From Limosilactobacillus antri DSM 16041 (GTDB lineage: Bacteria > Bacillota > Bacilli > Lactobacillales > Lactobacillaceae), in assembly GCF_000160835.1 (NCBI RefSeq), contig NZ_GG700733.1:710890-774889 (forward strand): a stretch of DNA of 64,000 nt, in the 5' to 3' direction. This document shows positions 24,251 through 28,684 of this stretch, in pieces; the stretch's first letter is position 1; every line of letters starts with the position of its first letter. Position numbers and translations under genes: made by a program. The notes under the pieces were generated by a model, which saw only the letters and a list, made by a program, of their open reading frames with translations, was not told the origin of the DNA and did no database searches.

Positions 24251-24943
24251 ATGGCTAAGAATCGTGGTAAGAAGTACCAAGATGCGCTTAAAAAGGTTGA
24301 CACTAAGAAAGCTTACGCTGTTAACGACGCAGTTCAATTGGTAAAAGACATTGACTTTGCTAACTTTGACTCTTCAATCGAAGTTGCATTCAACTTAAAC
24401 GTAGATACTAAGCAAGCAGACCAACAATTACGTGGTGCCGTTGTTTTGCCAAACGGTACTGGTAAGGACCAAACCGTGATCGTCTTCGCTGAAGGTGACA
24501 ACGCCAAGGCTGCTGAAGACGCTGGTGCTGACTTTGTTGGCTCCGATGACTTGGTAGAAAAGATCCAAGACGGCTGGTTAGACTTTGATGTTGCAATCGC
24601 AACGCCAAACATGATGCCAAAGGTTGGTCGCCTGGGTCGGGTCCTTGGTCCAAAGGGCTTAATGCCAAACCCGAAGACTGGTACGGTTACGATGGACGTT
24701 GCCAAGGCTGTTTCTGACGCCAAGGCTGGTCAAGTAACTTACCGGACTGACCGGGATGGTAACGTTGCCGTGCCATTTGGTAAGGTATCATTCGACACTG
24801 ACAAGCTGGTTGAAAACCTGAAGACTTTGGAAGACATCGTTGTTAAGGCGCGTCCAGCATCAGTACGTGGTACTTACATCAAGCACGCATCGATTGCGTC
24901 TACTTTCGGCCCAAGCGTTACGCTTGATCTCGAATCATTCTAA
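24251..24943 (+). CDS. rplA: 50S ribosomal protein L1
   Basis: A 230-residue L1 that forms the mobile stalk at the ribosomal E site and acts as translational repressor of its own mRNA. Conserved parts are [39 protein letters not shown] and the C-terminal [26 protein letters not shown] lies before ATG 24251. The gene ends the rplKA unit at the hairpin 24967-24997. Confidence 0.98.
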
Positions 24944-24966: not shown

Positions 24967-24997
24967 CAGCGACGGAGAACTCCGCCGTTGTTTTTTT
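24967..24997 (+). terminator. Terminator of rplKA
   Basis: CAGCG-A-CGGAG pairs with CTCCG-C-CGTTG across a 2-nt loop and is followed by seven Ts. The A-rich sequence on the other side is weak for the opposite direction. Confidence 0.9.
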
Positions 24998-25027
24998 GTT
25001 TTAAAGGTCATCGGCGGGGGTCAGTTT

Positions 25028-25105
25028 TCACGGGCTTAGTTCAGGATGATTTAAGTCTTGCTTTGACGGCAGGGTTAACGGTTGCGGCATTTGGCAATTG
25101 GGCAT
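25028..25105 (-). CDS. Possible 25-residue peptide downstream of the T-box
   Basis: A 25-codon ORF opening MPNCQMPQPLTLPSKQDLNH, with an ideal ribosome site GGAGG (25113-25117) 7 nt before its ATG. It is the first well-supported ORF after the T-box terminator (25207-25240) on the minus strand. It runs toward the converging rplA. I recognise no family. A second ORF, opening at an ATG just before 25170 with sequence MKNTPRLRHPNF, overlaps it and lacks a good ribosome site. It may be a real micro-protein or the remnant of a lost gene. Nothing else is seen from 24998 to 25200. Confidence 0.3.
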   Translation of the reverse strand: MPNCQMPQPLTLPSKQDLNHPELSP

Positions 25106-25200
25106 GGGGGAACCTCCTCATTTGGGACACGGGGTGGAAAGTTAGGGTGACGTAGGCGTGGGGTGTTTTTCATGATGTTACCGCACCGTTATCTGAAAAA

Positions 25201-25466
25201 GAAAAAGCCCTTTAAACACCAGGATTGATGTTTAAAGGGCGAACGGGTCGCGGTACCACCTTTTTTCGTGGGCAAGCCCACCTTTACCAGACAAATAATC
25301 TGTGGTCAGGATAATGGTCGACGGCCAAACCGGCTTACTCATTTCAGCGGCTAACTTGCAGGTGATCTTGCGTGGTGGGCCGCGGCTAACTTTCACCAAC
25401 CGTTAGCTCTCTGCTGCCAGCTACCACCCGCAAATTCCTGTGCATGGTTTTTCTAGAATTAAACTT
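25201..25466 (-). promoter_or_regulatory. T-box riboswitch (minus strand, apparently orphan)
   Basis: A complete T-box leader. Stem I carries AGAGAG (25407-25412 region) and the apical hairpin GCTAAC-GGTTGGTGAAA-GTTAGC (25385-25407). The T-box itself is GGTGGTACCGCG (25249-25260). A terminator GCCCTTTAAACA/TGTTTAAAGGGC (25207-25240) is followed by TTTTTC. AAAGG before the T-box can pair with CCTTT of the terminator arm to form the antiterminator. A specifier is uncertain: the lower Stem I loop reads GATCACC, so AUC (Ile) is possible and CAC (His) less so. No amino acid gene follows on this strand; rplA converges 250 nt away. Confidence 0.85.
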
Positions 25467-25472
25467 AGCTAA

Positions 25473-25501
25473 ACTATACTCACTGTTTTTTAATTTGTCA
25501 A
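25473..25501 (-). promoter_or_regulatory. Consensus promoter of the T-box leader
   Basis: TTGACA (25496-25501), a 17-nt spacer and TATAGT (25473-25478) on the minus strand. This near-perfect sigma-A promoter would start transcription close to 25466. Confidence 0.85.
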
Positions 25502-25706: not shown

Positions 25707-26897
25707 ATGACAGAGTTTAAATTTTCTAAACGAGTTCCAGCAGACGGCACGGATGCGGTTGGAGCCATCTTAAAGGCAGCGGCGGATCCGCGAATTATTT
25801 CCTTTGCTGGAGGGTTGCCGGCACCCGAATTATTCCCAGTTAAGGAAATGCAGGCTGCGGTTGACCTGGCTTTTGAAGAGCACGGCCAAGAAGCGATGCA
25901 ATACGGGGCCGCTAAAGGGGTAACCGCCCTGCGTGAACAAATCTTAAAACACGTAAAAGAAAAAGAAAATGTGACCGGGGAGTTAGAAAACGTCCTGGTA
26001 ACCACGGGGTCTGAGCAGGTCCTGGACCTGGTTGGGAAGGCCTTTGTTAATCCCGGAGACACGGTGCTGGTTGAACAGCCGACCTACCTGTGTGCCCTTG
26101 ACGTCTTCAAGTCCTACGGGGCCGATTTCGTCAGCGTTGCTACTGACGATGATGGGATGAAGATGGATGCGCTGGAAGCGGCGCTGAAGGCCAACCCGAC
26201 GGCTAAGCTAGTCTACACGGTGCCGAACTTCCAAAACCCGACTGGCCGGACGATGCCTGCCGACCGTCGTCAACAGTTAGCGGAATTAGCCGCTAAGTAT
26301 GACGTCCTGGTCTTAGAGGACAACCCCTATGGTGAAATCCGCTTTGCTGGGCAGCACGTTCCGGCGGTCAAGTCTTTTGATAAGGATGGTCACGTTCTGT
26401 ACATGAGCACCTTCTCAAAGACGCTGGCGCCGGGCTTCCGGCTGGGCTGGCTCGTGGCCGACGCTAAGGTAGTCGATAAGCTGACGGTGCTCAAACAGTC
26501 TGCTGATCTCCATACCGACAACCTGGCCCAGTACGCCGTGGTTGAATTCTTAGCCCATAACGATTTAGATGCGCACGTAAAGGAAATCAGCGCCCTTTAT
26601 GGCAAGCGCAAGGCACTGATGGTTGAGGGAATCAAAGAGTACTTCCCCGCCGGCGTTAAGTACACTGATCCGGAGGGCGGGATGTTCCTCTGGGTTGAGG
26701 TACCGGGAGTTAAGGACACCGTTGAACTGTTCAAGCAGTGCCTGGAACACAACGTTGCCTTTGTGCCGGGGGACCCATTCTTTGCCGGGCAGCCGCAACC
26801 AGGAGCTTTCCGCTTGAACTACTCCAACGCTGAAGAGGACAAGATTAAAGCCGGGATGAAGCAGTTGGGTGAAGCCCTGCAGGAAGCCGTTAAGTAA
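25707..26897 (+). CDS. PLP-dependent class I/II aminotransferase
   Basis: A 396-residue fold-type I aminotransferase of the subgroup containing 2-aminoadipate, aromatic and branched-chain enzymes (MocR-like catalytic domain without the HTH). The opening ISFAGGLPAPELFPVKEM is typical, with the Asn/Pro site YTVPNFQNPTGRTM, the Asp in LEDNPYGEIRF and the PLP lysine in STFSKTLAPGFRLGW. The substrate could be aromatic or branched-chain amino acids. Start ATG 25707 has GAGGAG upstream; the frame is open to 25602 but that part is leader. It converges on an amino acid permease and is divergent from the T-box. Confidence 0.9.
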   Translation: MTEFKFSKRVPADGTDAVGAILKAAADPRIISFAGGLPAPELFPVKEMQAAVDLAFEEHGQEAMQYGAAKGVTALREQILKHVKEKENVTGELENVLVTTGSEQVLDLVGKAFVNPGDTVLVEQPTYLCALDVFKSYGADFVSVATDDDGMKMDALEAALKANPTAKLVYTVPNFQNPTGRTMPADRRQQLAELAAKYDVLVLEDNPYGEIRFAGQHVPAVKSFDKDGHVLYMSTFSKTLAPGFRLGWLVADAKVVDKLTVLKQSADLHTDNLAQYAVVEFLAHNDLDAHVKEISALYGKRKALMVEGIKEYFPAGVKYTDPEGGMFLWVEVPGVKDTVELFKQCLEHNVAFVPGDPFFAGQPQPGAFRLNYSNAEEDKIKAGMKQLGEALQEAVK

Positions 26898-26975: not shown

Positions 26976-28403
26976 TTACTTCAATTTCATTTGGCCTAAC
27001 GGTACCAGGTGCGTGTGGTGGCGGAGCTTATAGTAAAAATAGAAAAAGATAAACAGCGGCACACTCATGTAGGTAATTAAAATATTCGACCAATCCAGCT
27101 TGACGAAGGCGTTGACATTCTGTCCCGCAATTACAACGATGCAGAGGATAAAAGCAAAGATGGGACCAAACGGGAAGAGGCCGGCGTGGTAGTCGAGTTC
27201 GTCTAGGGTGTGGCCCTGGCGCAGGAAGCCGCGGCGGAAACGGTAGTGAGCAATTGCGATGCCCAGCCACTCCATAAAGCCGCCGAGACTATTGGCGGAA
27301 ATCAGGTAGTTATAGACGTTGGGGCCGATAAATTGCAGGGCCCACATTGCCAAGCTCAGGAACGACATTGCCAAAAAGCTCAGGATCGGAATTCCCCGCC
27401 GGTTGACGGCCCGGAAGCCCTTCCAGAGGAAACCGTCCATTGACTGGGAGAACAGGATTCGTGAGATGGCGTACAGCCAGGAGTTTGCCGACGAAAGCAC
27501 CGCGATCAGGATGACGAAATTCATGATTCCGGCCGCCGATCGTAGTCCGGCATACTGGAAAATCAGGGTGAAGGGACTGGTGACAATGTCCGTGACGTCG
27601 GCGGACAGGAGGCTCTTATTCGTGTACGGCAAGACGCAGGCAATCACGAAAATCGTCAGGACATAGAAGAGCAGGATCCGCCAAAAGGTGGCGTGGATTG
27701 CCTGGGGAACGCTATGCCGCGGGTCCGCGGACTCACCGGCAGCGATCCCAACCATTTCGGTTCCTTGAAAGGAGAAGCCGGAAACGACGAAGGCACTGAT
27801 GATGCCGGGAATCCCATTGACGAAGGGGGCCTGCTTATAGGTGAAGTTCTTAAAACCCAGTGCGTGGTGACCGCCAATCAGGCCCAGAATAACCGCGATC
27901 CCGACAACCACGAAGATGACGACGGCCGCGACCTTGAGCAGGGCCAGCCAGAACTCGGTTTCCCCGTAGGCCCGCACCGAGAAGTAGTTAATGATGAAAA
28001 TAATGCCAAAGGCGAGCAGGCTAAAAATCCAGCCGGGGATGTGCGGGAACCAAAAATTCATTACGATACCGACGGTTGACAGTTCGACTGCGACGGTAAT
28101 TGCACCGCAGAACCAGTAGTTCCAGCCCATTGCAAAGCCGAGTGCCGGGTCGACGTAGCGGTTGGCATATTCCGCAAACGAACCGCTCCGGGGGTTGTAG
28201 GTTGCCATCTCCGCAAGACTGGTCATCAAGAAAAACACCATCAGGCCCATCACGGAATAGGCGACGAGGCTGCCGCCGGGTCCCGCCGTCGTGATGGCGG
28301 AGCCACTAGCGATAAATAAGCCGGTCCCGATCGTGCCGCCGAGTGCGATCATCGACAGGTGACGGGACTGGAGCGTGTGCCGAATCTGACCTTGATTATG
28401 CAA
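26976..28403 (-). CDS. Amino acid permease (APC family, LysP-like)
   Basis: A 475-residue twelve-helix permease of the amino acid transporter (AAT) group of the APC superfamily. The N-terminal motif HLSMIALGGTIGTGLFIASG is the substrate-binding unwound part of helix 1. SFQGTEMVGIAAGES in helix 6 and the C-terminal cytoplasmic tail are typical. LysP-like proteins carry lysine, others in the group carry histidine or aromatic amino acids; the substrate is not resolvable here. GAAGGAG lies before ATG 28403. The neighbouring aminotransferase suggests joint amino acid metabolism. Confidence 0.9.
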   Translation of the reverse strand: MHNQGQIRHTLQSRHLSMIALGGTIGTGLFIASGSAITTAGPGGSLVAYSVMGLMVFFLMTSLAEMATYNPRSGSFAEYANRYVDPALGFAMGWNYWFCGAITVAVELSTVGIVMNFWFPHIPGWIFSLLAFGIIFIINYFSVRAYGETEFWLALLKVAAVVIFVVVGIAVILGLIGGHHALGFKNFTYKQAPFVNGIPGIISAFVVSGFSFQGTEMVGIAAGESADPRHSVPQAIHATFWRILLFYVLTIFVIACVLPYTNKSLLSADVTDIVTSPFTLIFQYAGLRSAAGIMNFVILIAVLSSANSWLYAISRILFSQSMDGFLWKGFRAVNRRGIPILSFLAMSFLSLAMWALQFIGPNVYNYLISANSLGGFMEWLGIAIAHYRFRRGFLRQGHTLDELDYHAGLFPFGPIFAFILCIVVIAGQNVNAFVKLDWSNILITYMSVPLFIFFYFYYKLRHHTHLVPLGQMKLK

Positions 28404-28534: not shown

Positions 28535-28650
28535 GTTGATTAAATATGACTCTGCCTAAGACTCAGGTGGCACCCGCCTTAATTATGCCTGCCGAGGAAG
28601 AAATGTAAATTCCTTCTCTATGTCTGCGGTCATAGGGATTTTTTTATAAA
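28535..28650 (+). ncRNA. Ribosomal protein L10 leader
   Basis: The segment with CTGCCTAAGACTCAGGTGGC, then CCCGCCTTAAT and CCTGCCGAGG is the conserved L10(L12)4-binding leader of Gram-positive rplJ operons. It ends in a hairpin CTATG..CATAG with a T-run (about 28618-28647), consistent with autogenous control by attenuation. The match is from memory of the motif, not from a covariance search. Confidence 0.85.
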
Positions 28651-28684
28651 TCCGGTCAAAATAAATTGCGGGAGGTGAAAATTC

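Follow-up and report, generated by a model that had tools for sequence, protein, structure and literature searches.

T-boxes are generally regarded as cis-acting switches. Among described leaders that bear on the present locus, the S. aureus ilv leader is an amino-acid leader-peptide attenuator (PMC5794164), tandem T box and riboswitch systems place two control layers in one leader (PMC9481103), and an M-box controls a small upstream ORF (PMC12810186). The window analysed here is a 64,000-nucleotide stretch of Limosilactobacillus antri DSM 16041. In it we found a predicted tRNA-Ile-sensing T-box leader whose hydratase-like structural gene appears to have been lost in the lineage, and which is most likely a vestige.

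The element lies on the minus strand. A sigma-70-type promoter, TTGACA-17-TATAGT (25473..25501), matches the consensus at 11 of 12 positions and precedes the T-box aptamer region from Stem I to the antiterminator (25232..25454), which was recognized by a covariance match to RF00230 and by alignment with 11 relatives. The intrinsic terminator has a 15-pair stem (25207..25240), found by a terminator scan. The covariance match scored 81.8 bits (E 4.8e-18) and covered the whole model, positions 1-219. The full T-box leader and the promoter that an earlier note had read from the letters of this DNA are confirmed. The RF00230 gathering score is 93, and the element is therefore absent from the output of a default Rfam scan. 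Its score is nevertheless ordinary, since the T-boxes of three close genomes (G037, G046 and G038; n=83) ranged from 31 to 129 bits, with 28 of the 83 reaching the cut-off; gene-bearing relatives scored 85.5 (L084), 97.4 (L006) and 98.4 bits (L007). Shuffled sequences yielded a mean of 1.0 promoter-like and 1.1 terminator-like sites in the same scan, which makes the promoter and terminator matches weak taken alone. The specifier codon was assigned by eye as AUC (isoleucine, 25364..25366) with the GAA...XXXA rule (PMC5794164), and the letters ATC were the same in 12 of 12 aligned T-boxes, the window copy included. The T-box sequence GGUGGUACCGCG (25249..25260), placed by motif position and covariance-model alignment, is of the UGGN type and comes with the competing terminator. 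The UGGU of a T-box sequence would pair with the tRNA 3′ end ACCA. Transcription would start at the promoter described above; with charged tRNA-Ile the transcript would end at the terminator after ~260 nt, and with uncharged tRNA-Ile the antiterminator would form and the RNA would continue toward the rplA 3′ end, presumably yielding no conserved product.

The element is flanked by rplA (24251..24943, plus strand), which converges with it, and by a class I/II aminotransferase gene (25707..26897, plus strand), which is divergent from it and served as the syntenic anchor. From the terminator end to the rplA stop (24943) there are ~263 nt, close to the gap of about 250 nt given earlier, and the terminator of rplA, read by eye at 24967-24998, lies between. 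We found no amino-acid-related gene behind the T-box: among listed minus-strand ORFs of at least 20 codons, those starting within 420 nt past it have 23 to 32 codons. The 25-codon ORF (25028..25105, minus strand) does have the good ribosome site noticed before, GAGGAGG 7 nt ahead of its ATG. The stretch between the T-box terminator and the rplA terminator (24995..25206, minus strand), where relatives hold a leader and a hydratase gene, had no DNA relative in 50 genus genomes, as the matches seen at E ≤1 in 38 of the 50 were all short and the best E was 0.018. Pfam returned no domain in three minus-strand ORFs and one plus-strand ORF. With both searches empty, the 25-codon ORF was rejected as a micro-protein, a role that the earlier note had offered for it. 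No hidden hydratase remnant was found by tblastn of eight hydratase queries against the window (best E 0.11, none near 25.0-25.2 kb), and a candidate remnant after the T-box that the window would share with L. oris and G037 was just a 12-nt match (E 0.07) and was not used. Elsewhere in the window, an azaaromatic (yjdF) riboswitch was found at 438-538 on the minus strand (88.2 bits) and a Ribosomal protein L10 leader at 28537-28653 (70.5 bits). An AA_permease-family gene (26976-28403) adjoins the aminotransferase gene; among the Limosilactobacillus loci, with flanks of ≤5 kb, only L001 and L004 gave strong matches.

The aminotransferase next to the T-box has its relatives in Limosilactobacillus, the nearest being that of L. 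oris DSM 4864, whose protein is 97% identical. The gene itself shows 86-87% DNA identity to those of G001 (L. oris) and G037; judged by its sequence, the window looks like a species separate from both, represented by one strain. L005 and L015 have the same T-box in the same setting, with rplA on one side and the aminotransferase gene on the other, and behind it, on its own strand, a gene for a 265-aa hydratase-like protein. This protein resembles 2-keto-4-pentenoate-type hydratases, with NCBIfam HpaH at 6.5e-25, under the cut-off, and matches to PDB 2wqt and 1sv6 at ~1e-17. A hydratase homologue occurs somewhere in 37 of the 50 genus genomes, and a T-box motif was present in all 32 distinct hydratase upstream regions of the fetched loci (23 by script and nine by eye). 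As the same T-box drives a hydratase-like gene in relatives and this gene is absent from the window, gene loss is the best account of the orphan, and this origin is well supported. The suspicion of a gene loss in the earlier note thus held, with an intact gene in relatives, and the gene turned out to be hydratase-like and not the permease or synthetase named there. An intact gene in relatives with a plain loss here, the case that the same note had set against its novel readings, is largely what we observed, and a novel reading of the window is weakened accordingly. In the nearest relatives, G001 and G037, the interval from rplA to the aminotransferase gene holds neither T-box nor hydratase gene, and all 26 T-boxes of G037 lie outside it, so that the window looks like an intermediate. 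At other sites in their genomes, G001, G037 and G046 do have a T-box-hydratase copy. G033 has aminotransferase copies from two lineages within a single metagenome bin, which may be mixed. As to the hydratase neighbourhood more widely, a hydratase gene, a lactate/malate-dehydrogenase-family gene and an aminotransferase gene stand in one row in L009 (3139-6188) and L003 (2858-5913), which suggests a keto acid pathway shared by the three genes. In L169 (2210-2512, genome G022) a T-box lies directly before the aminotransferase gene on the same strand, linking this enzyme to amino acid control.

The comparison with L005 and L015 also bears on the converging orientation. Over a distance of ~263 nt, readthrough in isoleucine starvation could make RNA antisense to the rplA 3′ end, against which the earlier note had suggested an action, and lower ribosomal protein output. 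However, the unit already faces rplA in L005 and L015, with the hydratase gene in between, indicating that the arrangement was inherited; moreover, the rplA terminator intervenes, and in L019 and L020 the T-box unit is not beside rplA. We therefore consider a special action on rplA to be very improbable.

If the element is a vestige, it would be at an early stage of decay, with the gene and the isoleucine leader of relatives gone and with promoter, aptamer and terminator intact. The window T-box departed at 9 of the 119 columns that are invariant among 13 gene-bearing T-boxes. By eye, six of these nine departures lie in helices with the pairing kept, two being compensated double changes (in stem II and the terminator), and the remaining three lie in linkers or the tail; none affects the specifier or the T-box sequence. 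When gene-bearing clades were left out in turn, they showed 0 to 14 departures at their own invariant columns. Against a vestige, the tip branch of the window T-box shows no clear decay: its ratio to aminotransferase third codon positions was 0.32 for the window and 0.00-0.36 for 10 gene-bearing tips, of which L005 alone exceeded the window (15 taxa; L027g, from which no aminotransferase piece was extracted, was excluded, and the near-identical L020 and L023 were left out of the tip comparison). By these measures the aptamer has stayed intact with, at most, a mild acceleration, compatible with recent loss or with continued use.

In relatives, a short ORF (M-x-D-S-D-I-S...) is located between the T-box terminator and the hydratase start. 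Of the 32 distinct regions upstream of hydratase genes, 21 contain this ORF, which has clustered isoleucine codons and, close to its start, the motif x-[DE]-S-[DNG]-I; L125 and L128 have a similar leader ORF by eye, and the nine others have none. The ATT codon at the first isoleucine is invariant in 16 of 16 aligned leaders, and changes in the ORF fall at third codon positions. A second class of hydratase upstream regions, recognized by eye, has a T-box with GGATGGTACC and lacks the isoleucine leader (L121, L122, L127, L129, L131, L132, L101, L116 and L120). Segment 1 of the leader, comprising its ribosome site and start codon, can pair with segment 2, the end of the leader ORF, and segment 2 can alternatively pair with segment 3 ahead of the hydratase ribosome site; of the 11 gene-bearing units that adjoin the aminotransferase gene, L002 is the exception to this alternative pairing, its segment 2 having its best partner at another place. 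In these 11 units, 0-24 of 300 shuffles were as good as the 1:2 pairing, and the fold of the remaining 3′ part was equalled by 1-86 of 200 shuffles. In an alignment of 11 gene-bearing rows (A2), 93.9% of cells paired in 1:2, against 33-58% for slid partners, with a covariation score reached by 0 of 500 shuffles, and 81.7% paired in 2:3 (1 of 500 shuffles), against 31-44%; these shuffles leave the relatedness of the sequences in place. In the same alignment, neither pairs changed on both sides (232/500 shuffles for 1:2 and 382/500 for 2:3) nor further pair types (85/500 and 389/500) exceeded shuffles. Outside the aminotransferase neighbourhood, the 1:2 pairing was absent in six of 11 leaders (L123, L125, L126, L185, L130 and L135). 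No U-run follows the leader hairpin, which is thus not a second terminator. We infer that the leader gives ribosome-dependent control responding to Ile-tRNA, making it a putative second isoleucine sensor in series with the T-box. A T-box followed by a leader peptide for its own amino acid would constitute a natural two-step isoleucine sensor, in which tRNA charging is read at transcription and then again at translation. Among the titles listed by literature searches with little coverage of subscription papers, none describes an isoleucine leader placed in series with a T-box, or a T-box hydratase in lactic acid bacteria.

The leader is found beyond the hydratase genes of this genus. A leader-only pattern matched in 17 of 396 family genomes, eight of these matches being the Limosilactobacillus leader. 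Among the other nine, G364, which belongs to another genus, has a T-box together with the leader, and in the remaining eight the 400 nt upstream contain no T-box motif. A pattern combining T-box and leader was found at 11 places, spread over 10 of 397 family genomes, and its reversed control in 0 of 397. Eight of the 11 places precede hydratases. At the other three, each a T-box with a DS.I leader, the gene that follows codes for a family 5 solute-binding protein in G364 (L280 1578-1822), for a family 3 solute-binding protein in contig C108 of G014 (L289 293-527) and for a lactate/malate-dehydrogenase-family protein in G028 (L284 1585-1823), with Rfam T-box scores of 112.3, 104.4 and 83.0 bits, respectively. 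Within its genus, of which 26 genomes were searched, G364 is the sole carrier of the combined pattern. These three non-hydratase genes indicate that the module can occur independently of the hydratase.

A T-box without its gene was also found in two other genomes, G046 and G008 (L. kribbianus, containing locus L014). Both keep the T-box, a 27-codon leader (MKDSDISGIQ...), both pairings and the hydratase-like start codon, after which other sequence with stops follows. Genome-wide, there is one hydratase elsewhere in G046 and none in G008, and neither genome has one at the T-box unit. The downstream remnant aligns between the two, so that the gene loss is older than their split. The tree joins the window with G037 and G001 (100/99) and G046 with G008 (100/100) and leaves the order of the groups open; the window and the G046/G008 pair may derive from a single shared loss of the hydratase or from two losses. 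Downstream of the gene-less unit in G046 is a helix-turn-helix gene (L166 1347-1712), which we take to be antitoxin-like; the G008 contig gave no alignment at this gene.

We found that from the promoter to the hydratase start G046 and G008 differ at 10 of 432 counted sites (2.3%; the 16 nt between terminator and leader are omitted from the counts), with 2 of 85 sites differing in the leader. By comparison, 29 of 297 sites differ in the next 300 nt downstream (9.8%; Fisher p 1.6e-5 against the unit), 13 of 181 in the upstream intergenic region (p 0.008) and 85 of 475 at fourfold sites of three neighbours (18%; p 6e-16). A divergence of 2.3%, lower than the 9.8% of the downstream stretch and the 18% of fourfold sites, makes the gene-less unit look selected, which speaks against a vestige. 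Gene-bearing pairs show a like contrast, L006/L007 having 18 of 269 T-box sites changed against 54 of 129 fourfold sites (five pairs were compared, L020/L021 with just 8 fourfold sites), and the ratio of T-box to third-position divergence was 0.17 in the gene-less pair and 0.19 in both L006/L007 and L002/L008. In addition, an ORF of 90 aa or longer follows within 420 nt at 82 of the 83 T-boxes of G037, G046 and G038, and the gene-less orphan is the one where none does; the first such ORF was counted whether or not it is a real gene, and a few look spurious (for example L222 and L251), so this count is an upper bound.

These data fit the possibility that the orphan T-box RNA itself works without a protein-coding target and is kept by selection. 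Tentatively, it might work in trans, or by sequestering uncharged tRNA-Ile; the acting species might be either the terminated T-box RNA or a longer, starvation-induced RNA. A T-box unit selected after gene loss would suggest a role in trans or on its own. However, product and partner are only hypothetical here, one gene-less pair was compared and its low divergence could partly reflect a local rate difference, and G046/G008 sit on a long T-box branch. Ratios in deeper pairs ranged from 0.19 to 1.65, the highest in G046-L006, although third positions near saturation make these values uninformative. The window also lacks the isoleucine leader that G046 and G008 keep. A tRNA-sensing unit that works on its own account, as suggested in the earlier note, gains support from G046 and G008, where the gene-less T-box and leader change at a rate like that of gene-bearing species; a kept gene-less function is possible and better supported by the sequence data in those two genomes than here, where we continue to read the element as a vestige.

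The ORF after the T-box, either the leader of relatives or the 32- or 25-codon ORF of the window, could alternatively be the product or a working leader. In line with this, the x-[DE]-S-[DNG]-I motif is kept with changes at third codon positions, and the leader stands before three other genes and outlasts the hydratase in G046 and G008. However, the relatives' leader ORF overlaps RNA pairings, and its conservation can therefore be regulatory. Neither window ORF is like that leader. The 32-codon ORF (25075..25173, minus strand), which occupies the place of the isoleucine leader, has one isoleucine codon in 32, against 2-7 in 24 other leaders, and may be read as a degenerate or replaced leader. 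Within the stretch up to the 25-codon ORF, its start gave a pairing no better than shuffles (265/300). In an extended stretch, the start can pair with the ORF's own end at 25090-25069, which is the layout of the relatives' leader and counts against a vestige, at a borderline strength that 18 or 71 of 500 shuffles equal, according to how long a 5′ piece is taken. The hairpin of segments 2 and 3 is absent from the window fold, and there is no next gene. With neither window ORF resembling the relatives' leader and with no relative in the 50 genomes, a product or working leader is unlikely.

Taken one step further, the T-box and leader might form a Lactobacillaceae isoleucine-starvation RNA module that senses twice and, in some Limosilactobacillus species, outlives its gene by virtue of an RNA job of its own, with the window as its most reduced form; we put this forward with considerable reserve. 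If it is true, tRNA binding would be sensed first and ribosome behaviour on a leader of isoleucine codons second, with varied genes behind. Even if it is a fossil, the window copy would show a route of decay in which the gene and the leader go first and the aptamer last.

Compared with known systems, the window element shares with the isoleucine-specific T-box riboswitch (RF00230) the AUC specifier in Stem I, the T-box sequence, the antiterminator and terminator and a sigma-70 promoter, and differs in having no downstream gene and a score below the curated cut-off. Its T-box is orthologous to that of the Limosilactobacillus T-box-leader-hydratase unit (L005, L015, L006 and others), with the same place and orientation in L005 and L015, whereas the isoleucine leader, the 2:3 hairpin and the hydratase gene are missing from the window. 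The gene-less unit of G046 and G008 is like the window in being a T-box without its gene, but it retains the leader ORF, the hairpin and the hydratase start codon. Attenuators of the S. aureus ilv type resemble the relatives' arrangement, not that of the window, in having a codon-rich leader, mutually exclusive pairings and a metabolic gene; in the relatives, unlike in these attenuators, the leader comes after a T-box that is specific for this amino acid too, and it lacks its own U-run terminator. The tandem T box/riboswitch systems and the M-box likewise have two layers, or a riboswitch ahead of a small ORF, but in the relatives a leader presumed to depend on the ribosome, and serving the amino acid already sensed by the T-box, would form the second layer in place of a second aptamer.
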